Assembly: GCA_021732975.1 (NCBI GenBank)
Contig: JAKFWC010000024.1
Span: 124,001 to 188,000, forward strand
Origin: Planctomycetaceae bacterium
GTDB lineage: Bacteria; Planctomycetota; Planctomycetia; Planctomycetales; Planctomycetaceae
Reading direction: 5' to 3'
DNA: 64,000 nucleotides
Shown here: positions 1,200-63,779 of the stretch, in pieces
Numbering within the stretch: position 1 is the stretch's first letter
Layout of the letters: each line of letters opens with the position of its first letter
Notes under the pieces: generated by a model
Databases searched by the model: none
The model's input: the letters and a program-made list of their open reading frames with translations, nothing else
What the model was told of the DNA's origin: nothing
Position numbers and translations under genes: made by a program

Positions 1200-1277
1200 G
1201 TGTGCCACGGCTCTGTGAGCCGTGCAAGATCAGAAAACGCTGTAAAGAATCGCACGGCCGACACGGCCGTGGCACAC
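1200..1277. repeat. Composite intergenic palindrome, GTGTGCCACGG family, copy 1
   Basis: The outer arms GTGTGCCACGG and CCGTGGCACAC are exact inverted copies. Each arm also folds on itself: the left as CACGGCT-ctgtg-AGCCGTG, the right as CACGGCCG-aca-CGGCCGTG. It begins 8 bases after the ruvX stop and is falsely read as the N-terminus of the next ORF. Related copies lie at 28446 and 53029. Confidence 0.9.
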
Positions 1278-1325
1278 CGAATGATTCCCTCAACGAACAA
1301 TGATCCCCTGCCGGAGGCACGAAAG

Positions 1326-2192
1326 ATGGCTGGTCTCGATCGGGAGGAGTATATCGAGCAGGCCTATTTTTTCCGGACCTTTGGCGAACGGCTCGATGAG
1401 AATTTGCCGGCGCAGGAGATTCTTGAAAGCCTGCGGGAAGAAGTGCTGGCGACGACGAAACTGCCAATGGCCATCGATGTCATGCGCGGTGAACTGATAC
1501 ACCAAGGTCGTTTGAGCGACGGCATGGTTCACCTGCCGCACTACTTCGCGCCGTTTCAGACATTCGTCATGCAGAAATCGGAAGAGGACAAAACGAAGTT
1601 CGATCAACGGACGGCGTTGCACATTCTGGAACGGGAAGCGAAGTACCGGAGCGAGAATCCCTCCGCCGCGGGATTATTCGTCTATCAATTTGAATGCCTG
1701 GCCCGGAATCGACTGGGGTATGACCGCGGTCTCGAAGCGATGGCGACCGATCCGTTGTACGATCCGCTGTGGCGCGAATGGGTCCGTAAGATTCGGCAAC
1801 GGCTCGGGGAACACGAGTTTGCCGATCTGATTTACGCCCGTTCGGAATGGTATCTCGAAGAAAAACGCCGGGCGGGACAAGCAGACTATGTACCTCCTGC
1901 GCCGATTCTCTTCGGCAAGTCGGAAGGCCGCATCGCCAAAGCCAATCGGGGCAAAGACCCGTTGTATCTCTTCGCCGCATTGCAACGACAATTGGGTTAT
2001 CCGGGTGTGCCCCGACCGCGGCCGGCGGAATCGCAACTGAAGCTGCCGCCGCAGTTGGAAATCCGGCTACAACGAATCGAGAAGCGGATGCAACTCGCTG
2101 AGAGCGAAGCGCAAGGCAAGCTCGATCTGAGTCAATTCTACACGTCGACACCGCAGTTTCCGGATGATGATTTGAATCCATCCACCCCCTGA
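1326..2192 (+). CDS. Conserved hypothetical protein, planctomycete type
   Basis: A 288-residue soluble protein with no signal peptide or membrane segment and many charged and aromatic residues (YIEQAYFFRTFGERL near the start). The C-terminus has a short helical, Arg/Glu-rich stretch near residues 240-265 and an acidic/proline tail. I do not recognise a catalytic motif. The track start at 1200 runs through a palindromic repeat; the ATG at 1326 follows CCGGAGGCACGAAAG, a good ribosome binding site. The last 55 bases overlap the 3' end of the convergent queG. It may be restricted to planctomycetes; function unknown. Confidence 0.8.
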   Translation: MAGLDREEYIEQAYFFRTFGERLDENLPAQEILESLREEVLATTKLPMAIDVMRGELIHQGRLSDGMVHLPHYFAPFQTFVMQKSEEDKTKFDQRTALHILEREAKYRSENPSAAGLFVYQFECLARNRLGYDRGLEAMATDPLYDPLWREWVRKIRQRLGEHEFADLIYARSEWYLEEKRRAGQADYVPPAPILFGKSEGRIAKANRGKDPLYLFAALQRQLGYPGVPRPRPAESQLKLPPQLEIRLQRIEKRMQLAESEAQGKLDLSQFYTSTPQFPDDDLNPSTP

Positions 2193-3343
2193 AGCCCAGT
2201 TATTCTGATGGCAGGGTCTCCGCCAAATTCCGCGAGCACAAGTGGATCCGTTTCCACGGCGCGATGAGCCTGCAACGCCGCTTCCGCCGCGGGATCATCG
2301 AATTGCCGCAGCGCCCAGACTGCTGCACCGCGGACAATCGAATCGGTATCGGTCAGCGCCGCAATCAATGCAGGTATCGCTTCATAACATTGCAAGTTGG
2401 CGAGCACGATCGCCGTCGTCCGCCGCATGCCGTTCCAGCCGGGACGATCCAATGGCGTCTTAGCGAACCGCGTTTGAAACTCCTCTTTGGACATCGTCAA
2501 GATCGCCAGCGCATCGGCGGGAGTGAGATCCGTCTGCGGTTGCACGACGGAATCGGTCGACGCCGGAGACTTGCGATTCCACGGACAAACGTCCTGGCAG
2601 AGATCACATCCGAACAGCCAATCGCCGATGTTGGTGCGATGCTCGCGCGGAATCGGGCCATCCAGTTCGATGTTGAAGTAGGCGAGACATCGGGTCGCAT
2701 CGAGAACATACGGCTCGGGAAACGCCTGCGTCGGGCAGACATCGAGGCAGCGCGTGCAGGTACCGCAATGGGTCGTGAGATGTGGTTCGTCCGGTTCCAG
2801 CGGAACATCGGTCAGCAAGCCACCGAGGAACAGAAAGCTGCCGGCCCGTTTGTGAATGAGCAGCGTGTTCTTGCCGAACCAGCCGAGTCCCGCCAACCTG
2901 GCAAAATCGCGCTCCAGCAGCGGGGCGGTATCCACCACCACACGAGTACGACACTGCGGAACTTCGTCGTGCAACCAATCGCCGAGTTGCTTCAGTCGCG
3001 CGCGTAAATAGTCGTGGTAGTCGCCGCGTGGATGAGCATAGCGGGCAATCCGCGCGGGGGCAGTGACCGGCACAGACTGCAGGGATTCGGTCTTGTAATT
3101 TAATGCGACCATCACCACGCTGCGGACACCCGCCAGCACGTTTTCGGGATGTTCGTACGCCGCCGCGCGACGGGGCAAGTAGTGCATCTCTCCGGCGAAA
3201 CCGTGTTCGAGCCACGACAGCAGTCGCGGGTAACCGGGCGGTGACACCGCGGGAGCGATGCCGATGAGATCGAAACCTAATCGCACCCCTTCCGCTTTCA
3301 ACCGAATGGCGAGCGAAGCGGGATCAGCTTCCGGGGTACTCAC
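2138..3343 (-). CDS. queG: Epoxyqueuosine reductase QueG
   Basis: Cobalamin-dependent iron-sulfur enzyme that reduces epoxyqueuosine to queuosine at the wobble base of tRNAs with GUN anticodons. The 401 residues include an N-terminal reductase region (LIGIAP, LNYK, Asp138 in VVVDTAP, GWFGKNT). Two 4Fe-4S clusters follow: CGTCTRCLDVCP (residues 193-203) and CDLCQDVCPWN (residues 246-253), with Cys219 in RCLAYF. A C-terminal HEAT-like helical repeat sits near 300-375 (RTTAIVLANLQ, RGAAVWALRQF), as usual for QueG. The start is GTG, overlapping the upstream stop as GTGA, so translation is probably coupled to the Gfo/Idh-like gene. Its 3' end overlaps the convergent gene by 55 bases. Confidence 0.95.
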   Translation of the reverse strand: MSTPEADPASLAIRLKAEGVRLGFDLIGIAPAVSPPGYPRLLSWLEHGFAGEMHYLPRRAAAYEHPENVLAGVRSVVMVALNYKTESLQSVPVTAPARIARYAHPRGDYHDYLRARLKQLGDWLHDEVPQCRTRVVVDTAPLLERDFARLAGLGWFGKNTLLIHKRAGSFLFLGGLLTDVPLEPDEPHLTTHCGTCTRCLDVCPTQAFPEPYVLDATRCLAYFNIELDGPIPREHRTNIGDWLFGCDLCQDVCPWNRKSPASTDSVVQPQTDLTPADALAILTMSKEEFQTRFAKTPLDRPGWNGMRRTTAIVLANLQCYEAIPALIAALTDTDSIVRGAAVWALRQFDDPAAEAALQAHRAVETDPLVLAEFGGDPAIRITGLQGVDGFKSSSGNCGVDV

Positions 3344-4281
3344 AATGCGTCCCAGGCGACGGACGCGTTCGTCGTGATCGAACGCCGCACGGATTCTAAC
3401 AAGCCCGCGGTAACGATGCTGCGAGATCGTTCGGCTGCGGACATCGGTGCAAGCATGTCCATTGCTTCTAATTCTTGCAGCGGATCGATGGATGGATTGT
3501 CGGCAGTAACCGATTCGTCAACCAACTCCCCGTCCGCGGTGGTGGTGATGATCCGCCGCTGATGATACGAACCGGCGGCACCTTCCATGATCCAGCCGGT
3601 GCGCAATCCCACGCGGGCAGTCCGGCGCAGTTCAATGTAGGCGGTGCTTCCGTCTTGAAACGCGATGTCCGTCGCAAAGCCATCTTCGGCAGGAAACTCG
3701 CGGGCCCAGACGGAGTGCGGCTCGGCGGTTGTCAACCCGGCCAATTGATCGAAAATCGGCGGGCCGGCAACGGCCAGGGTTTCGCTCCGGCGATACTGAG
3801 TCGCCGTACTTCCGGCCCAGACCGCATACTCTGCAGCGTACCAACGAAGAGCGTCAAGCCTTCCCAATCGTCCCGTGCCTAGTGCAGATGCGGCTGCGTG
3901 AAAGTCGGGTTCCGACCGTCGCAGCGCGACGACCCGCAGCGCGACATCACGAGCGTGTGCCAATTCAAACAGCGCAAGGGCTTCCGCACGGGAAGTCGCG
4001 ATGGGGGGCTCCACCAGTACGGACAGGCCCGCCGAGAGCAATTCCGCAATCAGCGAACCGCGATCCCACACCGGCAGGGCGACCAAAACCGCGGTGCAAT
4101 TGGTAGGACGGTTGATCAATTCCGAAACTCGGACCACCGGCATCGACGATGAATTGATCACATCGTCGGCCAGCGCTACCACACGGCCGGGGTTCAGAAG
4201 CTGCCAGCGTTCGCGGAAGAAATGCCCGCGGAGATTCAACCCGGCAATGGCCAGTCGCCAACTCTGTCGCGACATCCCCAT
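3340..4281 (-). CDS. Gfo/Idh/MocA-like oxidoreductase, atypical
   Basis: A 313-residue protein with a short Rossmann-type N-terminus (LAIAGLNLRG, RVVALAD) and the layout of the Gfo/Idh/MocA family: a predicted cofactor half, then a beta-sheet half with a conserved-looking FATDIAFQDGSTAYIEL strand pair. Two motifs deviate. There is no clean GxGxxG, and the family's E-K-P motif reads V-E-P-P-I, so the usual lysine is proline. It may be a non-catalytic or different-cofactor member. The track start at 4350 includes repeat-derived QAELGNE; ATG at 4281 or 4275 is the likely start. It is coupled to queG through a 4-base overlap. Confidence 0.75.
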   Translation of the reverse strand: MGMSRQSWRLAIAGLNLRGHFFRERWQLLNPGRVVALADDVINSSSMPVVRVSELINRPTNCTAVLVALPVWDRGSLIAELLSAGLSVLVEPPIATSRAEALALFELAHARDVALRVVALRRSEPDFHAAASALGTGRLGRLDALRWYAAEYAVWAGSTATQYRRSETLAVAGPPIFDQLAGLTTAEPHSVWAREFPAEDGFATDIAFQDGSTAYIELRRTARVGLRTGWIMEGAAGSYHQRRIITTTADGELVDESVTADNPSIDPLQELEAMDMLAPMSAAERSRSIVTAGLLESVRRSITTNASVAWDAL

Positions 4282-4314
4282 ATCGATACTGACCTTGTCG
4301 ATACCGTTACGTTT

Positions 4315-4444
4315 CTCGTTCCCAAGCTCCGCTTGGGAACGCTTTTCCACGAGGCTCTGCCTCGTCTTCTCCGTTGGCGCTGAGACACAGTCGTCGAGGC
4401 AGAACCTCGAGCCAAGACGTTCCCAGGCGGAACCTGGGAACGAG
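4315..4444. repeat. Composite palindrome, GTTCCCAAGC/GAGGCTCTGCCTC family, copy 1
   Basis: Four hairpins in the order A-B-B'-A': GTTCCCAAGC-tcc-GCTTGGGAAC, GAGGC-tct-GCCTC, then GAGGCAGAACCTC and GTTCCCAGGC-gga-acCTGGGAAC. A pairs with A' and B with B' across the element, so a long cruciform and four short hairpins are alternatives. It fills the gap between two minus-strand genes. Copies at 29337, 37038 and 45542. Confidence 0.9.
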
Positions 4445-4455
4445 TTTTGTGTAGC

Positions 4456-5166
4456 TTATGTCCCAGCGACTTTCGAGGCTCCGCTGATTTTGATCTTGAG
4501 TTTGCCCGTGCATTTGTGACCGGCGGGCACGTTCACTTTCAATTGCAGATATCCGGCTTGCGGCGGCGTCCAATCCTTCTTCGCCCGAACTTCAAACGGT
4601 TTGCCGGGCTTGTTGGTCTCCGCGTTCACGATGATGCCGATCAATGCTCCGACGGGGGCTCCCGGATAAACATCGACACCGTTATCGCTGGTCGCCAAGC
4701 CGTCCGCCGTCACTGGCAGCGTGGCGACAAACTTGTAATCGCCCGTCGCTTCGATGCGGACCAGGCGATCTTTCTGCAACATCGCCACCGCCGGCGTCCA
4801 CCCTCGGCTCACATCCATGTCGATCTCGAATTCGGAGGAATCGAGCGATTTCTCGGTCAGTTTGTCGATCTTGTCCTTCAACCCCGGCAGTTTGGGATCG
4901 AGCTTGTGGAGCACTTCGAGCAGAAACTTCGCGCGGTCGTATTCGCCGGCATCTTCATAACCCTTCGAGATATCCGTAGCGTCCCGCAGCAGTCCCTCCT
5001 GCAGTTCCTGCACGCGCGCATCGAGCGCCCGCACCCCCGTGCCCGTGGCCCCTTTCGACTTGGTCTTCGATTTCGAGCTTCCCGTCTGCGCCACGACAAA
5101 GTTGACGAGCACCAGACTGAGGATGCAGACCGGGCCGGCCAAAGCCACAATTTCGCGACGCGACAT
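4456..5166 (-). CDS. Secreted protein with LecA/PA-IL-like beta-sandwich domain
   Basis: A 236-residue exported protein. The N-terminus (MSRREIVALAGP then a hydrophobic run ending VVAQ) is a signal sequence or N-terminal anchor, followed by a Ser/Lys-rich linker and a helical region (residues about 40-100). The C-terminal part (about 105-225) has the rhythm of PA-IL/LecA-like galactose-binding sandwiches: WTPAVAMLQKDRLVRIEATGDY, then GVDVYPGAPVGALIGII and a terminal strand pair. Sugar binding is only inferred from this fold-level resemblance. Start ATG 5166 was chosen over the longer track start because the signal sequence begins there. The upstream 273 bases (5167-5439) form a divergent promoter region in which I see no gene or repeat. 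Confidence 0.7.
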   Translation of the reverse strand: MSRREIVALAGPVCILSLVLVNFVVAQTGSSKSKTKSKGATGTGVRALDARVQELQEGLLRDATDISKGYEDAGEYDRAKFLLEVLHKLDPKLPGLKDKIDKLTEKSLDSSEFEIDMDVSRGWTPAVAMLQKDRLVRIEATGDYKFVATLPVTADGLATSDNGVDVYPGAPVGALIGIIVNAETNKPGKPFEVRAKKDWTPPQAGYLQLKVNVPAGHKCTGKLKIKISGASKVAGT

Positions 5167-5439
5167 GGTGTGTTCTTTCGAGAGCGCTCGGAATCCATCG
5201 CCCAGTGGCACCGATGGTCACCGCTAAGGAATCCCTATTAGACGCCCAACCCCCCGCTAAACTCAAGCGGATTTCTCTCCTGCCGTACGACCCCGGCGTG
5301 ATATCCTGTCACCGGGCGGATTTGGCAGCATCAGAACGGACTGATAGGATGCGGATTCCCGAATTTCCACTCTGTGGAACCGGCGAGCAGGAATCGACAT
5401 CCTGCCGGTGAGCGATCGATCATGAGGAGAGGCCACGCG

Positions 5440-7515
<2,076 letters not shown>

Positions 7516-7576
7516 TTGTGTCGCCAAGGACGAAGTATCTGCCGCTCGCCATCTGTCTTGATAGAGCATATGACCG

Positions 7577-8608: not shown

Positions 8609-8631
8609 CCCCCCGTCAATGACGGGGGGGT
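8605..8631. repeat. Short palindromic element, TTAGCCCCC family, copy 1
   Basis: CCCCCCGTCA-a-TGACGGGGGG, 10-base arms, preceded by CTTAG whose TAG is the moxR stop codon. It could act as a terminator but lacks a T-run. Nearly the same 25 bases, with the same CTTAG flank, recur at 23594 in front of genes, which argues for a dispersed repeat rather than a plain terminator. The rest of 8632-8758 shows nothing I recognise. Confidence 0.8.
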
Positions 8632-8758
8632 ATTCGGCGATTGCCCTCAACGTCGGCCCCCGCACGGTCGATCTTACCGTTACAGCCGGACGTGTCCCGG
8701 CTCCGACCGGCAGAAATTGCCGGTCAACGACAATCCCTGGCGACGGAACGCGGGCCTC

Positions 8759-9580: not shown

Positions 9581-9590
9581 TCGATGGCAC

Positions 9591-10674: not shown

Positions 10675-10862
10675 TTTTAGCCGCAAAAAGACACAAGAAG
10701 ACACAAAAAAGAGGAAGACATTTTTTGCCACAGAAGGCACAGAATTCACAGAAGGGAAGAAGAAGCCCTTCCGGATCTCATTTTTGTGAACTTTGTGCCT
10801 TCTGTGGCAAAACGGATTTGTCTTTCCTCTTGTGTTCTCTTGCGCCTTTTCGCGCCTAAAAT
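10675..10862. repeat. Long imperfect inverted repeat, CACAGAAGGCACAGA family, copy 1
   Basis: This fills most of the 317-base gap 10551-10867. The left arm starts TTTTAGCCGCAAAAAGACAC and contains GCCACAGAAGGCACA. The right arm contains TGTGCCTTCTGTGGC and ends GCGCCTAAAA. Arms are about 80-90 bases with scattered mismatches, and AT-richer than the genes. Related elements lie at 23122 and 62526. No coding signal was seen. Confidence 0.85.
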
Positions 10863-10867
10863 TCTTC

Positions 10868-13342: not shown

Positions 13343-13392
13343 GGGGCGCGAAACCGCAAAGCGTGGATCATCGCTTTGCGGTTTCGCGCCCC
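13343..13392. repeat. Perfect 21-base inverted repeat between two minus-strand genes
   Basis: GGGGCGCGAAACCGCAAAGCG pairs without mismatch with its inverted copy at 13372-13392 around an 8-base loop. There is no T-run on either side, so an intrinsic terminator is not obvious. It lies downstream of the SMP-30 gene and about 45 bases before the VWA gene start. Confidence 0.88.
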
Positions 13393-21587: not shown

Positions 21588-21664
21588 TGCTCCGTCGCAG
21601 TCCGGAGCGCAAGCGACGGGCGTCATGACATCATGTGGACTCCCGTCGCTCGCGCTCCGGGCTG
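21588..21664. repeat. Composite palindrome, GCGCAAGCGACGG family, copy 1
   Basis: Left AGTCCGGAGCGCAAGCGACG pairs with right CGTCGCTCGCGCTCCGGGCT with two mismatches. It starts 3 bases after the PSCyt stop and ends about 20 bases before the DUF1501 start, so the linked genes are separated only by this element. Related to the copy at 34857. Confidence 0.85.
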
Positions 21665-21686
21665 GGAAAGAGGAGAACCGAACATC

Positions 21687-24946: not shown

Positions 24947-25050
24947 CATTCCGTCGCTTGCGCTTCGCGGAACCCCAGCGCCCACGCTCGTTCCCCCAGA
25001 AGATCATCGCGCCGATTTGTGTACCCGCAAAGCGCAAGCGAGGAAGAATC
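24947..25050. repeat. Composite palindrome, CGCTTGCGCTTCGCGG family, copy 1
   Basis: Left CCGTCGCTTGCGCTTCGCGG pairs with right CCGCAAAGCGCAAGCGAGG, with flanking CATTC/GAATC. It occupies the gap between two convergent genes and carries the GCGCAAGCG core shared with the elements at 21588, 40421 and 50871. Confidence 0.8.
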
Positions 25051-26154: not shown

Positions 26155-26240
26155 CCACGCTTGCGCTTCACAGGATCCCAGAGATCGCGTTGGGTCGGAG
26201 ATGTTCACGGGCGCTGGGATCCTGCAAAGCGTGAGCGTGG
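26155..26240. repeat. Composite palindrome, CGCTTGCGCTT...GGATCC family, copy 2
   Basis: Left CCACGCTTGCGCTTCACAGG plus ATCCCA pairs with right TGGGATCCTGCAAAGCGTGA plus GCGTGG, a 26-base imperfect stem with about 34 bases between. It lies in the 204-base divergent gap 26096-26299. Confidence 0.88.
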
Positions 26241-28445: not shown

Positions 28446-28523
28446 GTGTGCCACAGCCGTGTCGGCCGTGCGGAGTGGCAAATCGCTCTGCAAAATCGCA
28501 CGGCCGACGCGGCCGTGGCACAC
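28446..28523. repeat. Composite palindrome, GTGTGCCACGG family, copy 2
   Basis: Left GTGTGCCACAGCCGTGTCGG plus CCGTGC pairs with right GCACGGCCGACGCGGCCGTG plus GCACAC. It occupies the gap between folE and the beta-helix gene and is translated as a false N-terminal extension of the latter in the ORF track. Confidence 0.9.
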
Positions 28524-29336: not shown

Positions 29337-29466
29337 CTCGTTCCAGGCTCCACCTGGGAACGGGCGTCCGCGAGGCTCTGCCTCGTTGTAAGACACCCTC
29401 ACGCCATGATCTGGAGAGACGCGGAGCGTCTCGGACGAGCGTTCCCAGACGGAGCATGGGAACGAG
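29337..29466. repeat. Composite palindrome, GTTCCCAAGC/GAGGCTCTGCCTC family, copy 2
   Basis: Same A-B-B'-A' plan as 4315. Its core (gtaagaca...ctggagagacgcggagcgtctcgga, quoted in part) matches the copy at 45542 far better than the copies at 4315 and 37038, defining a subfamily. It lies in the 397-base divergent gap 29213-29609; the rest of that gap shows nothing I recognise. Confidence 0.9.
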
Positions 29467-32525: not shown

Positions 32526-32594
32526 GCCGCTGGCTCTGCCAGTGCATTGCAATCTGTGCGTTGGTTGGAAAAAAACACTGGCAAAGCCAGCGGC
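32526..32594. repeat. Composite palindrome, CACTGGCTCTGCCAGTG family, copy 1
   Basis: Left GCCGCTGGCTCTGCCAGTGC pairs with right CACTGGCAAAGCCAGCGGC; each arm is also a CTGGC-tct-GCCAG hairpin. It begins 16 bases after the DUF1353 stop, in the 340-base gap 32511-32850. The remaining 256 bases before the next gene show no clear feature; a promoter for that gene is expected there. Confidence 0.88.
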
Positions 32595-33550: not shown

Positions 33551-33634
33551 GAAGCCCAGGGATTCTGATCCCTGGGTCTCTTCATTTGTACGGAAGGGTG
33601 CAATGCGACCCAGGGTTCAGAAACCCTGGGCTTC
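33551..33634. repeat. Composite palindrome, CCCAGGGATTCTGATCCCTGGG family
   Basis: Left arm hairpin CCCAGGGAT-tctg-ATCCCTGGG and right arm hairpin CCCAGGGTT-caga-AACCCTGGG; the two arms are also inverted copies of each other (GAAGCCCAGGG / CCCTGGGCTTC). It is the clearest example of the double-hairpin plan with complementary TCTG and CAGA loops. Confidence 0.92.
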
Positions 33635-37017: not shown

Positions 37018-37157
37018 TAGCCCCCGGTTGTCGCGCACTCGTTCCCAAGCTCCGCTTGGGAACGTCTTTCTCCGAGGCTCTGCCTCGTCATCCTTCGTAC
37101 ACTCAGTCGAGGCAGAGCCTCGATCCCGGACGTTCCCAGGCAGAGCTTGGGAACGAG
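37018..37157. repeat. Composite palindrome, GTTCCCAAGC family copy 3, fused to a TTAGCCCCC half-element
   Basis: 37038-37157 is an A-B-B'-A' element (GTTCCCAAGC-tcc-GCTTGGGAAC, GAGGC-tct-GCCTC, GAGGC-aga-GCCTC, GTTCCCAGGC-aga-GCTTGGGAAC). Directly before it, 37018-37034 is the left half of a TTAGCCCCC element with no right half. It lies in the 280-base gap after the M28 gene. Confidence 0.88.
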
Positions 37158-37290
37158 TTGCCGGTGGCGCGTATACCGGCATCCCGAGTTTCGCTCTTGT
37201 GCTCGCGTCGTTTCGGACCGATAATTCACATCACTGCCCGTTGATCCTTCCGCCCTGCCCCTGCCTGCCTTGCTGCCGAGGAAGCCCACC

Positions 37291-40420: not shown

Positions 40421-40499
40421 CAACGAGCCCGAAGCGCCAGCGCCGGGTTCTTTACATTGAATGATCAATACACCCGTCGCTGGCGCTTCGGGCTTGTTG
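40421..40499. repeat. Composite palindrome, GAGCCCGAAGCGC family, copy 1
   Basis: Left CAACGAGCCCGAAGCGCCAG pairs with right CTGGCGCTTCGGGCTTGTTG. It fills the 96-base gap inside the PSCyt-DUF1501 pair, 4 bases after the first stop. Second copy at 50871. Confidence 0.9.
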
Positions 40500-41957: not shown

Positions 41958-41991
41958 GTGAGCGGCAAGGCGCTAGCGCCTTGCCGCTCAC
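41958..41991. repeat. Perfect 34-base palindrome
   Basis: GTGAGCGGCAAGGCGCT followed by its exact inverted copy, with no loop, 5 bases after the DUF1501 stop. It may be the collapsed form of a composite element or a binding site for a dimeric protein. It is distinct from the terminator that follows. Confidence 0.9.
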
Positions 41992-47103: not shown

Positions 47104-47202
47104 CGTTTAGCCGCGACTCGGAGTCCGCGGAGAAGAGCGCTAACGAAAATCGCACGATCGGTGTGAAATCCGCGTAGCGCTCCTTCGGGTCGCGGCTAAA
47201 CG
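47104..47202. repeat. Composite palindrome, TTTAGCCGCGAC family
   Basis: CGTTTAGCCGCGAC pairs with GTCGCGGCTAAACG; inner AGCGCT copies pair as well. It fills the gap between two convergent genes and shares the TTTAGCC terminus with the elements at 10675 and 23122. Confidence 0.88.
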
Positions 47203-48341: not shown

Positions 48342-48429
48342 GTGTGCCACTGGCTTTGCCAGTGTCTTGATTTTTTTTTGATTCCTTCTTGAGTCGAAGA
48401 CGAAGACACTGGCAGAGCCAGTGGCACAC
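48342..48429. repeat. Composite palindrome, CACTGGCTCTGCCAGTG family, copy 2
   Basis: GTGTGCCACTGGCTTTGCCA plus GTGTCTT and AAGACACTGGCAGAGCCAGT plus GGCACAC pair almost fully around a T-rich centre. Each arm is also a CACTGGC hairpin. It separates two minus-strand genes. Confidence 0.92.
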
Positions 48430-49876: not shown

Positions 49877-49954
49877 CGAAACGTCCACGGGAAGGGAACT
49901 CTGAAGAATTCATCCTATCCGGAGTGGGAAGTCGACACCAGACGATATTGGAAA

Positions 49955-50031
49955 GGTTGAGGGTCGAGGGTCGAAAGTTGAGGGCAAGACGATTCTTTTC
50001 TGACCCTCAACCTTCGGCTATCAACCCTCAG
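49955..50031. repeat. Imperfect palindrome, GAGGGTCGAGGGTCGAAAG family
   Basis: GGTTGAGGGTCGAGGGTCGA plus AAGTTGAGGG pairs with ACCCTCAACCTTCGGCTATC plus AACCCTC. It abuts the PIG-L gene's stop. It is the only member of its family in the window. Confidence 0.8.
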
Positions 50032-50035
50032 CCTC

Positions 50036-50800
50036 TCACGGCGAGAGAATCTGGGCGAGGAGATCGTCGTGCGGGTAGGGATGCCCGCGGTGCTGACAGA
50101 AGCCTTCGCCGTAGGCGACGCCAAGTTGTTCCCCCCGCGCGGCGGACCACCGACGGGTGCCGTCGAGATACTCGTCCAACCCGTGTTGTCGCCGCAACCA
50201 ATCGCGTTGACTGGCATGACAGGCAAGCATTTCCAGTTTGGTTTCAATCGTGTCCGAAATGTCGACGATCAACATTGGCGGTTGCGGGCGGCCGTAGTAA
50301 TCGACGCCTTCAATCGCATCGACATAGTAAAGGTGCGGAATGCCCGACAGTGGCGGGGCGGGATCCCATTGCCGCGTGACATAATGCGGAACAGACGCAT
50401 TGAAGCACGCGTCGCGCACCAGGCGGCTGGTGACTTCGTGGTCGCTCATGTAATCGATGGGTGGGGCGGTCATCACGATGTCCGGCCGGGCTCGCCGCAC
50501 CGCTTCCGTTACCCGCCGGCGGCTGTCGTCGTTATGTTCAATCGACAAGTCGCGGAACTCCAGACACATGTAGTCCGCCCCGAGCAGATCCGCCGCACGC
50601 TTGGCTTCGGCTCGACGCACCGCACTGATTTCATCCGGCAGCAACTCTGCGCTGCCGAGATCGCCGGGCGTCATTGTGGCGATGGTGATGTGACAGCCAA
50701 GTTGCTTGAGCCGCAACAACGTTCCCGCACACTGGATTTCGACATCATCCGGATGGGCATGAATTGCCAGGATTCGCAGAGATCTTAGATCAGCGGCCAT
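50036..50800 (-). CDS. PIG-L family deacetylase
   Basis: A 254-residue zinc-dependent deacetylase of the LmbE/PIG-L family, which removes N-acetyl groups from GlcNAc-containing conjugates (as in BshB or MshB). Metal and catalytic motif AHPDDVE lies near residue 15, and the third zinc ligand His in [16 protein letters not shown] near 120. LTPGDLG-like [12 protein letters not shown] and [17 protein letters not shown] are family blocks. The C-terminal stretch ([23 protein letters not shown]) is typical of the planctomycete subgroup. Cytoplasmic, no signal. ATG 50800 chosen; GTG 50809 is an alternative. Confidence 0.92.
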
Positions 50801-50870: not shown

Positions 50871-50940
50871 ACGAGCCCGAAGCGCAAGCGCCGGGTTCTT
50901 CTATCAGAATGCACCCGGCGCTCGCGCTTCGGGCTTGTTA
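50871..50940. repeat. Composite palindrome, GAGCCCGAAGCGC family, copy 2
   Basis: ACGAGCCCGAAGCGCAAGCG plus CCGGGT pairs with ACCCGGCGCTCGCGCTTCGG plus GCTTGT. Same family as 40421. It sits between the ATP-grasp gene's stop and the PIG-L gene's start. Confidence 0.9.
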
Positions 50941-50951
50941 TCGCGCTCGTG

Positions 50952-51902: not shown

Positions 51903-51984
51903 GTGTGCCACTGGCTCTGCCAGTGCTCTTTCTATTGTTTGAAAGGCTGCCGGTGGGAAGACACTGGCAGAGCCCGTGGCACAC
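51903..51984. repeat. Composite palindrome, CACTGGCTCTGCCAGTG family, copy 3
   Basis: GTGTGCCACTGGCTCTGCCA plus GTG pairs with CACTGGCAGAGCCCGTGGCA plus CAC; left arm folds as CACTGGC-tct-GCCAGTG. It lies in the 183-base gap between mch and the ATP-grasp gene. Confidence 0.92.
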
Positions 51985-52988: not shown

Positions 52989-53137
52989 AGAGAGGAACCA
53001 CGCGAAAGAGAAAAGAACAACTAAAGATGTGTGCCACGGTCGTGCGAACGGGGATAACGCTTTGTTCCAACGCACGGCCGACACGGCCGTGGCACACAGT
53101 CAGAATGTCCTCCGTGGTTCCCAATCCTCTCTTTTTC
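52989..53137. repeat. Nested composite palindrome: GTGTGCCACGG family copy 3 within another inverted repeat
   Basis: The inner element 53029-53097 has outer arms GTGTGCCACGG / CCGTGGCACAC, as at 1200. It is flanked by a second, less perfect pair: left GAGAGGAACCACG and right CGTGGTTCCCAATCCTCTC, with a 6-base indel. The 177-base gap 52959-53135 is almost all element. Confidence 0.8.
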
Positions 53138-53663
53138 ACGGTTGAGCGGGACGGAACTCCGCCGGGAGTTCTTGCGGCTGAAATCGTAGCCGGATTTCCT
53201 GCTGGCAACAATCACACGGTTTGATCTCGTACATCGGGATCGCACAGATGTCGCACCAGTAATCGGTGTAGTTGCGGGTACCGTCTTTGTCGAACGTGTA
53301 GACCATCAGCACTTGCAGGTACGGCACGCCCGGGCGGCGGTAACCGATCAGTTCGACCTTGCGGTCGCGCAGTCGTTCATCCTGATAGAACGCCCTGCCG
53401 CGCCAATCGGGCAGGATGGGGATGATCTCGTTGTCCGGCGTGAGCAACGCCACCTGTTCGCGCAGCTCCTGCGGATAGACTTTCACTTTCAGCCGTTTTA
53501 ACGCGTCCGGCGTCTTCAGCACTTCGCCGTGGAACACCTGTTTCGGCGGTGCGGGCCGGTCATCGGATGGTTCGGCACCGATGGCGCAGATCGCAACCAC
53601 GACACCAAGACTGCTGAGGAATCGACGCAAACAGACGCACATTGCCGGGACGCCTACAGTCAC
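53136..53663 (-). CDS. Exported Cys-rich hypothetical protein
   Basis: A 175-residue protein with a signal peptide (LRRFLSSLGVVVAICAIGAEP). The mature part has an OB-like strand region (KVELIGYRRPGVPYLQVLMVYTFDKDG) and near the C-terminus a cluster CDICAIPMYEIKPCDCCQQE: five Cys in about 18 residues, suited to binding zinc, iron or copper. I do not recognise the family. The GTG start overlaps the stop of the BI-1 gene as GTGA, suggesting coupling; an internal ATG at 53642 would remove 7 residues and is also possible. Confidence 0.75.
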   Translation of the reverse strand: MTVGVPAMCVCLRRFLSSLGVVVAICAIGAEPSDDRPAPPKQVFHGEVLKTPDALKRLKVKVYPQELREQVALLTPDNEIIPILPDWRGRAFYQDERLRDRKVELIGYRRPGVPYLQVLMVYTFDKDGTRNYTDYWCDICAIPMYEIKPCDCCQQEIRLRFQPQELPAEFRPAQP

Positions 53664-54497: not shown

Positions 54498-54589
54498 ACG
54501 AGCCGGACGGGTGAGCGACGAGCCTGCGTATTCTTGTACCCTGCGAGAATCAGACGAAATAAACTCCGTCGCTCACATCTCCGGCTCGT
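54498..54589. repeat. Composite palindrome, CGAGCCGGAAGCG-type family, copy 1
   Basis: Left ACGAGCCGGACGGGTGAGCG plus ACG pairs with right CGTCGCTCACATCTCCGGCT plus CGT. It occupies the gap between the kinase stop and the BI-1 start. Related to 63689. Confidence 0.85.
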
Positions 54590-54600
54590 AATCGGCACCG

Positions 54601-56829: not shown

Positions 56830-56830
56830 G

Positions 56831-57436: not shown

Positions 57437-57622
57437 CATTCCACCAAAGGAGTTCCTTCGCAGCCGTCGACCAAAAGATCGCGGCCGTCCGCGAGCGCGT
57501 CGCCTCCCATAATACGCGCCACAGGCCATCCGGACGAGGACCACGGTGAGCGGATCGCCAGTTTTGCTGCGGTGACATGACGACTTCCTGATGTTTGTCG
57601 TTCTCGATGTGTGTTATCGGAA

Positions 57623-59029
57623 TTAACGTTGCGCAAGTTTCGGCATGCTTTCTTCCGGTTGGATGACCGTCCCGGTAACGAGATCGTCGGTCGGATTTAC
57701 GACCAGCCGTTCACCACCGGTGATGCCGTCCACCACGACGACACGAGTGCCGAGATCGCGCCCGAGGCCCACTCGACGAACTTCAATCTGATCGTGTTCG
57801 CCCACCAGAGCCACATGCGGGCCGTCGATGCGCATCGAGAGTGTGTTCGTGGGAATCGTCCAGGCGGTCGCTTCCTGCGGAACGGTCAGCGTCACTTGCG
57901 TGTAACTCCCGGGTTGCAGGCGCTGCGTGTCATTCGGCAATTCAATTTCGGCGAGCATAGTGCGGCTGTTGGCTTCCACCGATTCGGAGATGCGGGTGAT
58001 CTCTCCTAAAACCGGCGGTGACGATGATTCCGGTAGCCGCAGGCTGGCCACGACGCCACGGCGAATCTGCATCGAATAGGTTTGCGGCACCTGCAACTGC
58101 ACGCGAATGCGGTGCATATCTTCCAGCACGAACAACGGTTCGGTTCCCGCGGTGACGAGCATGCCGACTTCCGCATTCCGGCGGGTCACCACACCATCAA
58201 ACGGGGCCACAATCCGCTTGAAACTTTGCAGTTCCTTGAGTCGTTCCACATTCGATCGGCGACTTTGCGCGGTCGATTCGCGGACGGTGATGATCGCTGC
58301 CCGCGTTTCGAGATTCGCTCGCCGACGGGTGATGTCCGCTTCTGCCGCAGCCACATCGGCACCGCTGGCTTCAACTTGTCGCGAGGCCGTGTCGAGTTCT
58401 TCCTGCGGGATGATTTTGTTTTTGACGAGATCCTGCCGACGCCCCAGTTGACTGCGGGCCAGTTCGAGGTCCGCTTTCACACGGCCCAGTTGGGCTTCAG
58501 CGTTCTGAAGGTCCGCGTGGGCTTCCACTCGTTCCGCCTGAGCCTGCACCACCGCCGACTCGGCTTCGCCTGCCAGCGCAACAGCCTGAGCCAATTCCTG
58601 GTCGAGCTCCGGCGTTTCGATCTCGGCGAGCAAATCGCCCGTCTTGACCGTTGCCCCGAGATCGTAATGCCACGTTTTCAGATATCCGTTGACTCGGGCA
58701 TGCAGTGTGGTGGTTTGCCACGGCCGCATGGTTCCTGGCAGCACCACCTGTGTGGTCGTCGCCGGTGTCGGACGTTCCACGCGGACGACCCGCGGTTGCA
58801 GGTGTTCATCGTGAACCGTCGACGACGTGGTGCGAGCCCATTCCCACGGCCGCATCGCCACGGTGGTTCCACTCACGGCCAACACCGCGGCGAGCGGCCA
58901 ACCGAGCACAAACCCGGAACGTTTTCCCGGCGGCAGACGGTGTGTCCCCGACCGACGCATTGCCCCATTGGGCAACGCTTCAGTCAGTTTGGTGTCCTGC
59001 GGGCGGGATTCGGTCAGCACGGAATTCAT
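57623..59029 (-). CDS. RND efflux periplasmic adaptor (HlyD/MFP family)
   Basis: A 468-residue membrane fusion protein linking an RND pump to the outer membrane. One N-terminal transmembrane segment (about 38-58) is followed by an RVERPTPATTTQVVLPGTMRPWQ strand, a lipoyl half-motif (VNGYLKTWHYDLGATVKTGDLLAEIETPELDQEL) and an alpha-hairpin coiled coil (about 145-260). The second lipoyl half (IVAPFDGVVTRRNAEVGMLVTAG) and beta-barrel and membrane-proximal domains come next (RVQLQVPQTYSMQIRRGVVASLRL). ATG 59029 has GGAG 8 bases upstream. It lies downstream of, and 247 bases from, the pump gene, which is the reverse of the usual order. No outer-membrane TolC gene is seen. Confidence 0.93.
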   Translation of the reverse strand: MNSVLTESRPQDTKLTEALPNGAMRRSGTHRLPPGKRSGFVLGWPLAAVLAVSGTTVAMRPWEWARTTSSTVHDEHLQPRVVRVERPTPATTTQVVLPGTMRPWQTTTLHARVNGYLKTWHYDLGATVKTGDLLAEIETPELDQELAQAVALAGEAESAVVQAQAERVEAHADLQNAEAQLGRVKADLELARSQLGRRQDLVKNKIIPQEELDTASRQVEASGADVAAAEADITRRRANLETRAAIITVRESTAQSRRSNVERLKELQSFKRIVAPFDGVVTRRNAEVGMLVTAGTEPLFVLEDMHRIRVQLQVPQTYSMQIRRGVVASLRLPESSSPPVLGEITRISESVEANSRTMLAEIELPNDTQRLQPGSYTQVTLTVPQEATAWTIPTNTLSMRIDGPHVALVGEHDQIEVRRVGLGRDLGTRVVVVDGITGGERLVVNPTDDLVTGTVIQPEESMPKLAQR

Positions 59030-59098
59030 CGTGTACTCCATCGAAGAACAGTCTGATCTACAGGAAATACCGCCGCCGCCGCCGATTCTTACAGCAAA

Positions 59099-59128
59099 CG
59101 AAAAAAGACCCGGACCGCGGGATCCGGG
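59099..59128 (-). terminator. Intrinsic terminator between RND pump and adaptor genes
   Basis: Read on the minus strand: CCCGGA-tcccgcgg-TCCGGG followed by TCTTTTTTCG. It lies after the pump gene and before the adaptor start, so adaptor transcription probably needs a promoter in 59030-59098. Confidence 0.7.
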
Positions 59129-59135
59129 ACTTACT

Positions 59136-59264
59136 GTTGTGCGCGGGTCTCCCAACCCCGCACGCTCTTCGACCGTAGGTCTTCTCTTTGTTTGTGGGAG
59201 ATCAAAGAAAATGCGGAGACCTGCGGTCGCGGGAAGTGCAGGATCGGGAGACCCGCGCACAACA
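59136..59264. repeat. Composite palindrome, GTTGTGCGCGGGTCTCCC family
   Basis: GTTGTGCGCGGGTCTCCC pairs without mismatch with GGGAGACCCGCGCACAAC. Inner segments (e.g. AGGTCTTCTCTTTG / CAAAGAAAATGCGGAGACCT) pair imperfectly. It is the only member in the window and lies between pump and adaptor genes. Confidence 0.9.
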
Positions 59265-59276
59265 CTCGTCACGCAT

Positions 59277-62200
59277 CTATTCCGTTACCGGAGCGGGTGC
59301 ATGCCCCCGTCGCAGCAGGCTGTACACCACCGGCACGAACAGCAGCGTGGTCAACGTCGCGACCAGCAAGCCACCGATCACCGCCCGTCCGAGTGGCGCG
59401 TTCTGCTCGCCCCCTTCACCCAAGCCGAGGGACATCGGCAACATCCCCATGATCATCGCCGCGGCGGTCATCAACACTGGCCGCAACCGCGTGCGGCCGG
59501 CTTCCAACGCGGCGGCGTAGGCGGAGTGTCCTTCCAACCGCTGTTCGTTGGCGAAGGTCACCAGCAGAATACTGTTCGCCGTCGCCACGCCGATGGACAT
59601 GATCGCCCCCATCAATGCCGGGACGCTGAAGGTGGTGTTCCACAAATACAGTGACCATACGATCCCCACAAACGCCCCCGGCAACGCGGTGATGATGATG
59701 AACGGGTCGAGCCAGCTCTGAAAATTCACGACCATCAACAGGTACACCAGCACCGCGGCGAAGACCAAACCGAGTCCCAACCGATAGAACGCCGATTCCA
59801 TGCTTTCCACCTGGCCCCGCATCGTGAGCGTATTCCCCGGAGCGAGTTTGGCGCGGTAACCATCGAGTAACTGGTTAATCTCACTCGCCACGCTGCCGAG
59901 GTCGCGTCCCTGCACATTGGCATACACGTCGAACGTCTTTTGGACGTTCGTGTGATTCGCGACTTCCGGCGTCACGCCCCGCTTCACCGTCGCGACGTTC
60001 GATAGCAGTTGCACCGAAGAATTGGCATGCGAGGATAATGGCAACGCGCTGATCGCATCGATGCTGTCCATTTTGTAGGTCGGCGTTCGCGATTCCACGA
60101 GGTACGAGATGCCCATGTTGGGATCGACCCAATAGTTGGGTTGCACCTGGCCGCTGCCGGAGAGGGACACCAGCAGGCTGTTCGCCACGTCCTGCTGCGT
60201 GAAACCGAGTTCGCGAGCGCGGGTTTGATCCACCGATACATGCAGCGTGGGAACGTTCATCACCTGATGCAGGTGGGCGTCCTGCACGCCGCGGATTTGC
60301 CGGACCTTCTCGACGATTTCCGTCGCCATCTGATAGTTCTCGGCGGCGCTCATCCCGGCGAACTGGATGTCGATCGGAGCGGGCAGACCGAAGTTCAGAA
60401 TCTGGCTGACAATGTCAGCCGGTTGAAAGAAGAACGTCAGTTCCGGAAAGCGTTGCGGCAACTCACGTCGCAACGCGGCGACATACTGCGGCGTCGATTG
60501 CGACCGATGGTGACTCAACGCCACCAGGATCTCACCGTCGGCCATGCCGGTCGTCGCACTATCGCCGAAGGCCATCGCATAAGTGCGGTTGGGCAGCCCG
60601 ATGTTGTCGAGCACAAGATCGACTTCGTGAGTGGGAATGATTTCCTTGATCGCGCGTTCCACATCGCTGAAATACGTTTCAGTCTGTTCGACACGCGTCC
60701 CGGCGGGGGCTCGCACATGCAACCGGAACTGACCGGTGTCCACCGTCGGAAAGAAGTCACGACCGACCCACGGCAACAACGTGAAACCACTCGCCACGAC
60801 TCCCGCGAACAGCAGGAACACCGCGGTCCGATGTCGCAGATTCCACTGCAACACCGTGACGTAGGCGTCACGAAGTTGCTCGAATTTCTCTTCAAAGGCC
60901 GCATGCAGCCGACCGAACCAGCCGTGGTCGTTACCGTGTCCCTGCTTCAATTCGGCGGGCAACAGATAGTCGACCATTGTCGGGACAATCGTCCGCGATA
61001 GCAGGTACGACGCCAGCATCGCAAACGCCACAGCCAATGCGAGCGGAGTGAAGAGATACTTCGGCGGCCCCTCCAGAAACAACACCGACACGAATACGAT
61101 GCTGATCGTCAGCGTCGACACAAACGTCGGCCCGGCGATCTGCATCGCCCCATCGAGAATCGCCTGCCGCAGCGGTTTTCCCAAACCAATGTTGCGGTGA
61201 ATGTTCTCGATTTCCACAGTCGCATCGTCCACGAGAATCCCCACGGCGAGCGCAAGTCCCCCGAGCGTCATCACGTTGAGTGAATGCCCCAGCAGGTACA
61301 GCATCACGATCGACGACAGAATCGCGAGCGGAATCGACACCGCGATAATCAACGTACTCCGCCAGCTTCCGAGGAAGATGAGAATCATCGCCGCGGTGAG
61401 CAAGCCGGCGATAATGCTTTCCACAACCACACCTTCAATTGCGGCCGTCACGAACAGCGATTGATCGAACAACAGTTCGATCCGCAAGTCTTTCGGCGCG
61501 GAGGCAATGATCTCCGGCATCTTCGCCTTCACCTGATTGACGATGTCGAGTGTGGAGGCGTTACCGTTCTTGAGCAGCGTGACCAAAGCTCCGCGGCTAC
61601 CGTTGCGCCGCACGATTGTGGTTTGAGCATTGCTCCCGTCTCGTACCTGAGCAACGTCACGCATCGTGATCGTTGCCCCGCCGACGACTTTGATCGGAAT
61701 GTCGTTAAAGCTGTCCGGCGTGAGCGGCGTATTGTTCATCGTCACCGGGTATTCATGCGTGTCGATCCGCGCGACCCCCGTGGGATAGGCCAGGTTGTAG
61801 GCGTTGATCGCGTCGGCCACATCCTTCGGTGAGATCCCCTTGGCATTGAGCAAATGCGGATCGAGATCAACCATCACCTGCCGTTCACGCCCCCCATACG
61901 GCGTGGGCATCGTCAGCCCCTGCACCGTCGAAAGCTGAGTGCGGAGGATATAGAGGCCATAGTCGTAAACCGATTCTTCGGACATCGTGTCGCTGCTGAG
62001 ACCCACCTGCAGAATCGGCACGCTCGACGCATTGAACCGGACGATGACTGGCGGTTGAATCCCCGGCGGCATCACGGCCCGAATCGCTTGAGCAACGGCC
62101 GTCACTTGCGACAGCGCGGTCCCGATGTTCGCTCCCTGGTGGAAGTAAATCTTGATGACTCCGACACCGTTCAGCGATTGCGATTCCATTCGCTTGATGT

Positions 62201-62429
62201 CGTTGACATTGGACGACAGGGCATACTCGCTGTACGTTGTGATCCGGCGTTCGAGTTCGCTCGATTCCATCCCTTTGTAGGTCCAGATCACCGTCACGAC
62301 AGGGATGTCGATTTCCGGAAAGATGTCCGTTCGCATCTGACTGATCGACGTGACGCCCAGCACACCGATGAGCAGGGCCATCACGACGAAGGTATAGGGC
62401 CGCTGCAGGGCCAATCGCACGATCCACAT
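59277..62429 (-). CDS. RND efflux transporter permease (AcrB/HAE-like)
   Basis: A 1050-residue inner-membrane proton-driven pump with 12 predicted transmembrane helices and two large periplasmic loops. Start MWIVRLALQRPYTFVVMALLIGVLGV is typical. The transmembrane-4 acidic pair is present (AVGILVDDATVEIENIHRN). At the equivalent of AcrB Lys940 in helix 10 the sequence reads GVATANSILLVTF, with Ala where Lys is usual, as in a distinct subgroup, so substrate cannot be assigned. ATG 62429 has CCGGAGAC upstream. The adaptor gene follows on the same strand after a repeat and a terminator. The gap 62430-62920 upstream holds a repeat. Confidence 0.95.
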   Translation of the reverse strand: MWIVRLALQRPYTFVVMALLIGVLGVTSISQMRTDIFPEIDIPVVTVIWTYKGMESSELERRITTYSEYALSSNVNDIKRMESQSLNGVGVIKIYFHQGANIGTALSQVTAVAQAIRAVMPPGIQPPVIVRFNASSVPILQVGLSSDTMSEESVYDYGLYILRTQLSTVQGLTMPTPYGGRERQVMVDLDPHLLNAKGISPKDVADAINAYNLAYPTGVARIDTHEYPVTMNNTPLTPDSFNDIPIKVVGGATITMRDVAQVRDGSNAQTTIVRRNGSRGALVTLLKNGNASTLDIVNQVKAKMPEIIASAPKDLRIELLFDQSLFVTAAIEGVVVESIIAGLLTAAMILIFLGSWRSTLIIAVSIPLAILSSIVMLYLLGHSLNVMTLGGLALAVGILVDDATVEIENIHRNIGLGKPLRQAILDGAMQIAGPTFVSTLTISIVFVSVLFLEGPPKYLFTPLALAVAFAMLASYLLSRTIVPTMVDYLLPAELKQGHGNDHGWFGRLHAAFEEKFEQLRDAYVTVLQWNLRHRTAVFLLFAGVVASGFTLLPWVGRDFFPTVDTGQFRLHVRAPAGTRVEQTETYFSDVERAIKEIIPTHEVDLVLDNIGLPNRTYAMAFGDSATTGMADGEILVALSHHRSQSTPQYVAALRRELPQRFPELTFFFQPADIVSQILNFGLPAPIDIQFAGMSAAENYQMATEIVEKVRQIRGVQDAHLHQVMNVPTLHVSVDQTRARELGFTQQDVANSLLVSLSGSGQVQPNYWVDPNMGISYLVESRTPTYKMDSIDAISALPLSSHANSSVQLLSNVATVKRGVTPEVANHTNVQKTFDVYANVQGRDLGSVASEINQLLDGYRAKLAPGNTLTMRGQVESMESAFYRLGLGLVFAAVLVYLLMVVNFQSWLDPFIIITALPGAFVGIVWSLYLWNTTFSVPALMGAIMSIGVATANSILLVTFANEQRLEGHSAYAAALEAGRTRLRPVLMTAAAMIMGMLPMSLGLGEGGEQNAPLGRAVIGGLLVATLTTLLFVPVVYSLLRRGHAPAPVTE

Positions 62430-62525
62430 GGGATGTCTCCGGTGAAAAGTTCCTCAATGAGAGGAATTACCGGCGGAAGCAACGATTCTTACAGGGGTCG
62501 CTGATTTCCTGACATGCGGAGAAGA

Positions 62526-62671
62526 CGGATTATCCACAGAGGTCACAGAAGACACAGAGAGAAAAAGAGGACGAAAAGTAAAGAAGGCAATTCTCTTAAT
62601 CCTGAATTGATTCCCTCCCTGTTTCTCTCCCTCGTCTTTCGGTGTCTTCTGTGACCTCTGTGGAAAACCGT
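62526..62671. repeat. Long imperfect inverted repeat, CACAGAGGTCACAGA family, copy 3
   Basis: Left ACGGATTATCCACAGAGGTC plus ACAGAAGACAC pairs with right GTCTTCTGTGACCTCTGTGG plus AAAACCGT. The arms are AT-richer than genes. It lies in the 491-base divergent gap 62430-62920; the remaining 62672-62920 has small GC hairpins (e.g. ACCGCGGCGTCACGCCGGT) but no recognised gene. Confidence 0.88.
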
Positions 62672-62920
62672 ATTTCCTCTCCCCTTTTTGTGGCTGTTTT
62701 TTGTGACTCCTCTGAAAAAATCTTTTGAAATCCGTGTAAGACCGCGGCGTCACGCCGGTAATCCCTGCAACAGGCCGACGCGAATGACGGTGGTCAACGC
62801 GAGGCCAGCAACCTCGAACTCTATTCACATCAATGGTTTCGAGCTTCGCTCTCTGGGCCGGGCATGTTGCCGGGTCTGATGAATTCTGTCCGGTTCGATT
62901 CAGCAATCAGGAACTTGATC

Positions 62921-63673
62921 ATGTCGCAGAAACTGCAAGGCAAAGTGGCGGTGGTGACCGGGGCGTCCAAGGGAATCGGTGCGGCGATCGCGCTGCATCT
63001 GGCCAAAGAAGGGGCGTCTGTCGTCGTCAACTACTCGTCGAGCAAAGATGGGGCCGACCGCGTGGTGGCAGCCATCGTCGACAACGGTGGCAAGGCCCTC
63101 GCCGTCAAAGCCAATGTCGCCAAGTTCGAGGACGTTCAGCACCTCTTTGCCGAAACGAAGAAAGCCTTTGGCAAGGTCGATGTCCTCGTCAACAACGCCG
63201 GGATCTACGAATTCGCTCCGCTCGAAGCGATCAATCCCGAACACTTCCACAAGCAGTTCGATCTCAATGTTCTCGGTCTGCTGCTGACGACGCAGGAAGC
63301 CGTCAAACTCTTCCCGGCCGAAGGGGGCAGCATCGTCAACCTGAGTTCCGTCGTCGCCACGACACCGGTCCCGAACGCCTCGGTCTACAGTGCGACAAAG
63401 GGAGCGGTCGATGCCCTCACCCGCTCGCTCGCCGCCGAGTTGGGACCGCGGCACATTCGCGTCAATGCGATCAATCCCGGCATGGTCGAAACCGAAGGGA
63501 CGCACACGGCCGGAATCACGGAAAGCGATTTCCGCAAGCAGATCGAACAACAAACACCACTCGGCCGCATCGGCCAACCGCGTGACATCGCCACCGCCAC
63601 GGTCTTCCTCGCGTCATCCGATGCCGGTTGGGTCACCGGTCAAACGCTGCTCGTCGCCGGCGGTTACCGCTAG
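62921..63673 (+). CDS. Short-chain dehydrogenase/reductase (FabG-like)
   Basis: A 250-residue classical SDR using NAD(P)H. Cofactor motif TGASKGIG (residues about 13-20), NNAG at about 88, catalytic Ser in NLSSVVA and Y-x3-K in VYSATKGAVDAL, then NAINPGMVETEG and the C-terminal GWVTGQTLLVAGG. It most resembles 3-oxoacyl-ACP reductase or glucose-1-dehydrogenase-type SDRs; without neighbours in a pathway the substrate is open. ATG 62921 has CAGGAAC upstream; the 19 extra track residues are rejected. Confidence 0.92.
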   Translation: MSQKLQGKVAVVTGASKGIGAAIALHLAKEGASVVVNYSSSKDGADRVVAAIVDNGGKALAVKANVAKFEDVQHLFAETKKAFGKVDVLVNNAGIYEFAPLEAINPEHFHKQFDLNVLGLLLTTQEAVKLFPAEGGSIVNLSSVVATTPVPNASVYSATKGAVDALTRSLAAELGPRHIRVNAINPGMVETEGTHTAGITESDFRKQIEQQTPLGRIGQPRDIATATVFLASSDAGWVTGQTLLVAGGYR

Positions 63674-63688
63674 TTCTTCCCAATTTTG

Positions 63689-63779
63689 ACGAGCCGGAAG
63701 CGGAAGCGACGGTCTTCATCCTTAACTCACGCTCGTAAAGCGGCGCAAAAGAATCCGTCGCTCACGCTTCCGGCTCGTT
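63689..63779. repeat. Composite palindrome, CGAGCCGGAAGCG family, copy 2
   Basis: ACGAGCCGGAAGCGGAAGCG plus ACGG pairs with CCGTCGCTCACGCTTCCGGC plus TCGT. It starts about 15 bases after the SDR stop. The short centre has a further CTCACGCTCGTAAAGCG segment. Confidence 0.9.

Follow-up and report, generated by a model that had tools for sequence, protein, structure and literature searches.

REPINs are repeats mobilised by RAYT proteins, also named TnpAREP (PMC3116915, PMC6006769, PMC8266576). TIRtrons comprise tyrosine transposase genes (TIRYT) with long inverted-repeat flanks that are unrelated to the GTAG REPs, and some of them have dispersed copies (PMC3733652). The S23p genes of the intervening sequences of 23S rRNA also lie within terminal inverted repeats and have been called selfish (PMC4990558). 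The TAACTGA heptamers are intergenic 7-nucleotide direct repeats of unexplained origin, for which a repeat-binding protein acting as a mobile element was raised by their author (PMC4679880). The present analysis concerns the intergenic palindromes of a 64,000-nucleotide stretch from a Planctomycetaceae bacterium, hereafter the window (G000:C2:124001-188000). Its host genome (G000) comprises 3.76 Mb in 24 contigs and is 65% complete; the presence of DUF1501, PSCyt1/PSCyt2/PSD1 and DUF1570 proteins is in keeping with a planctomycete.

The palindromes of the window are probably, for the most part, miniature mobile elements, the probable movers of which are encoded elsewhere in the genome or in a sister species. 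The explanation favoured here, with a probability of roughly 0.8, is that they are short non-autonomous elements formed by inverted arms around a variable spacer, each family depending for its copying on a cognate gene that acts in trans: a RAYT for the families A, B, C, E and F and, most likely, a PF05635 gene for family J and a GxxExxY gene (PF13366) for family D. Each element would consist of two inverted copies of a family-specific arm, and the cognate gene would act from another place in the genome, may have been lost, or may lie in the 35% that is unassembled. The mover of families A, B, C, E and F would be RAYT/TnpAREP, a single-strand HUH-Y1 nuclease, which would make these elements REPINs; judging from published work on RAYTs, it would cut and join the REP hairpins as single strands. 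The most likely cognate of J is the four-helix-bundle S23/intervening-sequence protein, and that of D the GxxExxY protein; both would presumably act on their palindromes. Movement of the elements is what we infer from the evidence below. A preliminary description of this DNA, made from its letters alone, had proposed a common origin, through a trans-acting mobiliser or a selected mRNA or DNA structure. Trans-acting mobilisers are supported by RAYT genes that are flanked by the same palindromes, in the own genome for B and C and in congeners for A, E and F. The single mechanism, on the contrary, probably gives way to three classes of gene that differ in the design of their arms: hairpin arms for RAYT, 7-nucleotide-periodic arms for PF05635, and CAC-type arms with a period of 8-10 for PF13366. 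On this reading, one design is found with many sequences because each mobiliser would keep the inverted-arm structure while the arms diverge by family. The overall interpretation of that description is therefore partly supported.

A scan of the 64 kb for ungapped inverted repeats, with a cut-off score of at least 14, returned 23 imperfect palindromes against none in four dinucleotide-preserving shuffles, and the shorter palindromes of the window were near the chance level. A 24th palindrome (62530-62667, 73% complementarity) came from a separate repeat search. The dense intergenic palindromes that had been described are thus real, and the number given for them, about 28, comes down to about 24 firm elements. 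Among the 23 scanned elements, 18 lie in called intergenic gaps and the other five touch only the 5′ ends of open reading frames (ORFs), the calls and start codons of which were obtained with a crude caller. At 48342, 53028 and 54498, conservation of the overlapped gene in the congener G001 starts only downstream of the palindrome in the alignment, so these start codons were over-called. None of the 24 palindromes lies inside a gene body, as had been stated. Every element is predicted to fold as a hairpin, with energies from -31 to -90 kcal/mol and, in many cases, with hairpins nested in each arm, which confirms the described architecture of outer inverted arms. The density of palindromes is 359/Mb in the window and 190/Mb in a 400-kb sample of the same genome. 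For clustering, the window was joined with 400 kb of the own genome and 400 kb of G001 (800 kb sampled); some of the sampled stretches were chosen near known A or C copies, which biases the family counts in the samples. Of the 28 families with at least two members, one or another includes 22 of the 23 scanned window elements. In the window itself 11 families are represented, fewer than the dozen or more that had been proposed: A with six elements, B with five, C with three, D and F with two each, and E, G, H, I, J and K with one.

A first pairing is that of RAYT genes with the families A, B, C, E and F. The 64-kb window itself yielded no gene for a RAYT, a PF05635 or a PF13366 protein, so the preliminary statement that no RAYT is visible is true at that scale; the genome, however, carries at least three intact RAYTs outside it. 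A search with PF01797 detected two Y1 genes in the own genome, and a RAYT profile gave five matches there, corresponding to intact RAYTs on contigs C1, C18 and C21, a decayed copy on C7 and a fragment on C11. The C21 RAYT has B1 palindromes on both sides, and so has its ortholog in G001, which occupies the same site beside an isoleucyl-tRNA-synthetase-like frame. The flanks of the C18 RAYT are C-type double hairpins. The decayed copy (L149, G000:C7 about 1500-1810) is a RAYT of the C type that has a truncated frame and, on one side, a C-type element. In other genomes, A2 arms flank two RAYTs of the congener G002, E and F arms flank the RAYTs L154 and L156 of G001, respectively, and B2 arms flank the RAYT L048 of genome G034; for other RAYTs of the genus, the flanking families are ones found elsewhere in the samples (clusters 6, 7, 17, 18 and 23). 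Taken over three congeneric genomes, inverted flanks are present at 17 of 19 Y1 loci and at 5 of 1500 random spans. The HUH histidines and the catalytic tyrosine are invariant in the RAYTs, and the nearest solved protein, by best PDB match, is the E. coli TnpAREP (4er8). In other genera, many of the RAYT-like and IS200 loci lack a local palindrome. Extragenic multi-copy pairs of inverted hairpins, a cognate Y1 HUH gene flanked by the same repeat, and intact HUH and tyrosine residues are among the features that characterise REPIN/RAYT systems, and these three are found here; families A, B, C, E and F are REPIN-type elements, a known kind represented by new families.

The elements of these five families are described next, and no strand is assigned to any palindrome listed here. 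Family A (key sequence GTGTGCCAC) includes three A1 palindromes, at 1200-1277 (GTGTGCCACGGC.., score 16, cluster 8), 28446-28523 (score 22, cluster 8) and 53028-53098 (score 14.5), and three of type A2, namely a palindrome of cluster 0 at 32526-32594 (score 16.5) and two REPINs at 48342-48429 (score 24.5) and 51903-51984 (score 20.5). Family B (ACGAGCC) is represented by a CCGGAGCGCAAGCGACGG variant at 21590-21672 (score 20, cluster 1), by B1 palindromes at 40421-40499 (score 23) and 50871-50938 (score 21), and by B2 palindromes at 54498-54589 (ACGAGCCGGACGGG.., score 15.5, cluster 1) and 63689-63778 (ACGAGCCGGAAGCGGAAGCGACGG, score 19). Family C (key sequence CTCGTTCCC) forms compound palindromes with two hairpins per arm: one at 4315-4444 (CTCGTTCCCAAGCTCCGCTTGGGAACG and CGAGGCTCTGCCTCG, score 27.5, cluster 2), one at 29343-29459 (score 19.5, cluster 2), which lies in a divergent gap and overlaps the 29289 ORF at a start codon that is probably over-called, and one at 37037-37158 (score 31). 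The single E palindrome (key sequence GGGGCGCGAAACCGC) is found at 13343-13392 (GGGGCGCGAAACCGCAAAGCG, score 21). Family F (key sequence GCTTGCGCTT) has one element at 26155-26240 (CCACGCTTGCGCTTCACAGGATCCCAG, score 17), in a divergent gap, that matches both flanks of the congener RAYT L156 by BLAST, and another at 24954-25041 (TCGCTTGCGCTTCGCGG, score 14.5) that resembles by eye the CGCTTGCGCTTTGCAG arms of this RAYT and gave no separate BLAST match to its flanks.

A second set of palindromes is distinguished by periodic arms. Among 14 strongly periodic palindrome arms, 12 have a period of 7, including that of the J element of the window, a heptad palindrome at 49951-50037 (GGTTGAGGGTCGAGGGTCGAAAGTTGAGGG; family key sequence GGTTGAGGGTCGA; lag 7, z 4.1). 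Family D (CCACAGA..) has a period of 9; it comprises a palindrome with CCACAGAAGGCACAGAATTCACAGAA arms at 10723-10812 (period about 9, score 23.5) and the one at 62530-62667 (CCACAGAGGTCACAGAAGACACAGAG), in a divergent gap, with weak similarity to the flanks of the GxxExxY genes L138 and L187. PF05635 and PF13366 were chosen as candidate partners by a guess and then tested. In three congeners, inverted repeats are present between the flanks of 11 of 13 PF05635 genes and of all four GxxExxY genes. Both flanks of the own PF05635 gene L123 match J at about 90-93% (BLAST), and the flanks of L138 match D at 81%. Wider sets from related genomes gave inverted flanks in 30 of 40 PF05635 loci, the best period being 7 in 24 and 8 in five, and in 26 of 33 PF13366 loci, with periods mostly of 8-10; the controls were 5 of 1500 random spans and 4 of 140 shifted spans. 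The PF05635 association extends across phyla: of 80 loci taken from named GTDB genomes, 79 were usable, and 41 of these have inverted flanks, mostly with period 7, against 0 of 146 shifted spans, in taxa that include Bacteroidota, Acidobacteriota, Verrucomicrobiota, Bacillota and Pseudomonadota. At these cross-phylum loci (L215-L293) the repeat sequence differs from one locus to another.

In one orthologous PF05635 element, the two arms have changed together. It occupies the same gap in both species, on G000:C20 (L130, 1376-1920) and on G001:C39 (L134/L301), between genes that we take, from our own reading, to be moxR- and DUF58-like. Its left and right arms are 97% and 93% complementary within the two species and only 72-74% identical between them. 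Related moxR-DUF58-like loci of G002 lack the PF05635 element; since they are about 70% identical and may be paralogs, they are only suggestive of an empty site. Another locus, L137 (G001:C57), holds a palindrome-boxed GxxExxY gene between direct 160-bp copies (1228-1387 and 1961-2120, 88% identical) that resemble a long target duplication or a recombination scar. Matches of a GxxExxY protein in the PDB to designed PPR proteins were taken as chance.

For both gene families what is shown is the association; the proteins could be movers of the palindromes, passengers on them, or factors that act on their RNA. A broader proposal, to which we give slightly less than even odds, is that PF05635 and GxxExxY are hallmark genes of a widespread, undescribed class of mobile elements bounded by periodic inverted repeats (7-nucleotide and about 8-10-nucleotide, respectively), whose stand-alone palindromes would be non-autonomous derivatives and whose arms would change in concert while pairing and period are kept. 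The alternative for J and D is that older palindromes of another mobiliser captured the four-helix and GxxExxY genes between two arms, in which case the palindrome would carry the small gene and not be moved by it. No solved relative of the PF05635 proteins has been characterised and arm sequences vary widely between loci, as would suit a passenger gene. The frequency of the association for two specific gene families, one of them tested across phyla, and the particular arm grammar of each family, which is unlike random cargo, nevertheless make capture rather unlikely.

Four further palindromes belong to families for which no partner gene was found: G at 33551-33634 (GAAGCCCAGGG..CCCTGGGCTTC, score 23, cluster 25), H at 41958-41991 (GTGAGCGGCAAGGCGCTAGCGCC.., family key sequence GTGAGCGGCAAGG, score 16, cluster 4), I at 47104-47202 (CGTTTAGCCGCGACTCGGAG.., family key sequence TTTAGCCGCGAC, score 15) and K at 59135-59264 (GTTGTGCGCGGGTCTCCC.., score 25.5, cluster 10). 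A pairing of G with the IS200-like gene L001 was discarded, as the two have only a weak CCCAGGG-core resemblance with no arm match beyond the core, and an I-like match at L191 looks like a coincidence with CGCGGAG repeats. The compound palindrome K has two hairpins per arm, like C, and turned up in no sample but that of the own genome.

The distribution of the families among congeners is uneven. A2 arm copies number 42 in G000, 209 in G001 and 18 in G002, and C hairpin sites, each of which the palindromic pattern matches on both strands, number 20, 1 and 1 in the same genomes; the reversed-pattern controls gave 0 for both. These shifts of about tenfold fit a family-specific amplification. Position by position, the window from 33.7 to 54.5 kb corresponds to positions 75.0-94.9 kb of G001:C2, the two aligning mostly at 78-83%. 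Both species have the B elements of 40421 and 50871 and the I element of 47104, with nearly identical arms and diverged spacers. G001 lacks the A elements at 48342, 51903 and 53028; in two of these gaps it has other palindromes, and the one in the gap orthologous to 48342 is periodic. Besides, at the place of H (41958) in the window, G001 carries an A element, and it keeps only a C-like right half of the C element at 37037. The called gene 53136-53642 is also missing from the syntenic region of G001, a loss or gain that it shares with the neighbouring A palindrome at 53028. Old copies mixed with lineage-specific ones are what mobile repeats, unlike terminators, are expected to give. The preliminary description had named two outcomes that would speak against it, each family occurring once per genome and the same palindrome standing at every orthologous gap; neither was observed, as the families occur in several copies and the palindrome at an orthologous gap is often another one.

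The persistence of some elements also bears on the possibility that they are mobile in origin but are at present maintained by selection acting on an RNA or DNA structure, with roles in gene-end insulation, transcript stability or supercoil relief, so that persistence, and not movement, would explain most of the pattern. The shared B and I elements, whose arms remained nearly unchanged while the spacers diverged, and the orthologous four-helix element, which keeps its arm complementarity in spite of a difference of 26-28% between the arms of the two species, are in agreement with it. However, many gaps are not common to both species, and gene conversion among copies could also conserve the arms; this possibility is considered improbable, though not negligible. 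Ordinary intrinsic terminators or mRNA 3′-end structures arisen independently in each gap, in favour of which are the position of most palindromes between co-oriented genes, the stable folding as RNA predicted for all elements and the few singletons of the sample that resemble true terminators, are very improbable and are rejected as a general explanation on account of the three elements in divergent gaps (26155, 29343 and 62530, by gene order) and the dispersed sequence families that hold nearly all elements, and the tenfold copy-number differences between congeners, the differing orthologous gaps and the RAYT genes flanked by the same arms point in the same direction.

Several observations weigh against the copying of these elements in trans by cognate genes. 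The heads of A, B and C (GTGTG, ACGAG and CTCG) differ from the canonical GTAG, while a GT[AG]G hairpin foot occurs in the sample clusters 7, 16, 17 and 23. The RAYTs of A, E and F, as well as the GxxExxY gene of D, are known from congeners only, the own genome being incompletely assembled, and the own partner of J, L123, has an in-frame stop. We know of no nuclease activity of PF05635 proteins. The families G, H, I and K stand without a partner. The pairings were first proposed on the basis of three genomes, and the wider sets, although made mostly of new loci, include the first 13 PF05635 and four GxxExxY loci. Finally, no transposition event was observed, nor any precise empty site with both junctions mapped.

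With copying in trans as the explanation, most of the dense palindrome load of this planctomycete is given a concrete candidate mover, and the rule that links repeat to gene can be tested family by family. The co-occurrence of 7-nucleotide-periodic inverted repeats and PF05635 across phyla offers a candidate explanation for both the origin of the 23S rRNA intervening sequences and the heptamer repeats. For the uncharacterised GxxExxY family, the link to palindromes gives a first genomic context. In the open-access literature, no text was found that links dispersed periodic palindromes to genes for PF05635 or GxxExxY proteins; the J/PF05635 and D/PF13366 links are thus without a prior description that we could find, whereas the RAYT/REPIN kind is already known.

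Among the described systems, the heptamer repeats and the S23p genes of 23S rRNA come nearest to the PF05635 and PF13366 elements. The TAACTGA heptamers, however, consist of one direct motif, almost never inverted and with no gene linked, unlike the many motifs, inverted arms and associated PF05635 gene described here. The intervening sequences of 23S rRNA share with the present loci a small PF05635-type gene within terminal inverted repeats, as in L123, whose flanks match J. However, J is placed between two protein genes and L130 between the moxR- and DUF58-like genes, and not in 23S rRNA helices, and the arms are 7-nucleotide-periodic and accompanied by stand-alone palindromes. With REPIN/RAYT systems, the RAYT-linked window families share inverted pairs of short hairpins, an extragenic location, multiple families and a Y1 HUH gene of their own that each of them flanks; GTAG- and GTGG-headed families with RAYTs are also present in the congener G001. 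The window families depart from these systems in the non-canonical heads of A, B and C, in the two hairpins per arm of C and K, and in the scores of the Y1 proteins, six of the seven tested being under the NCBIfam RAYT cut-off. With respect to TIRtrons, the examples in the text consulted come from other phyla, and the window families are not among these (PMC3733652). The RAYT pairing is, in sum, a REPIN/RAYT arrangement with TIRtron-like variation.

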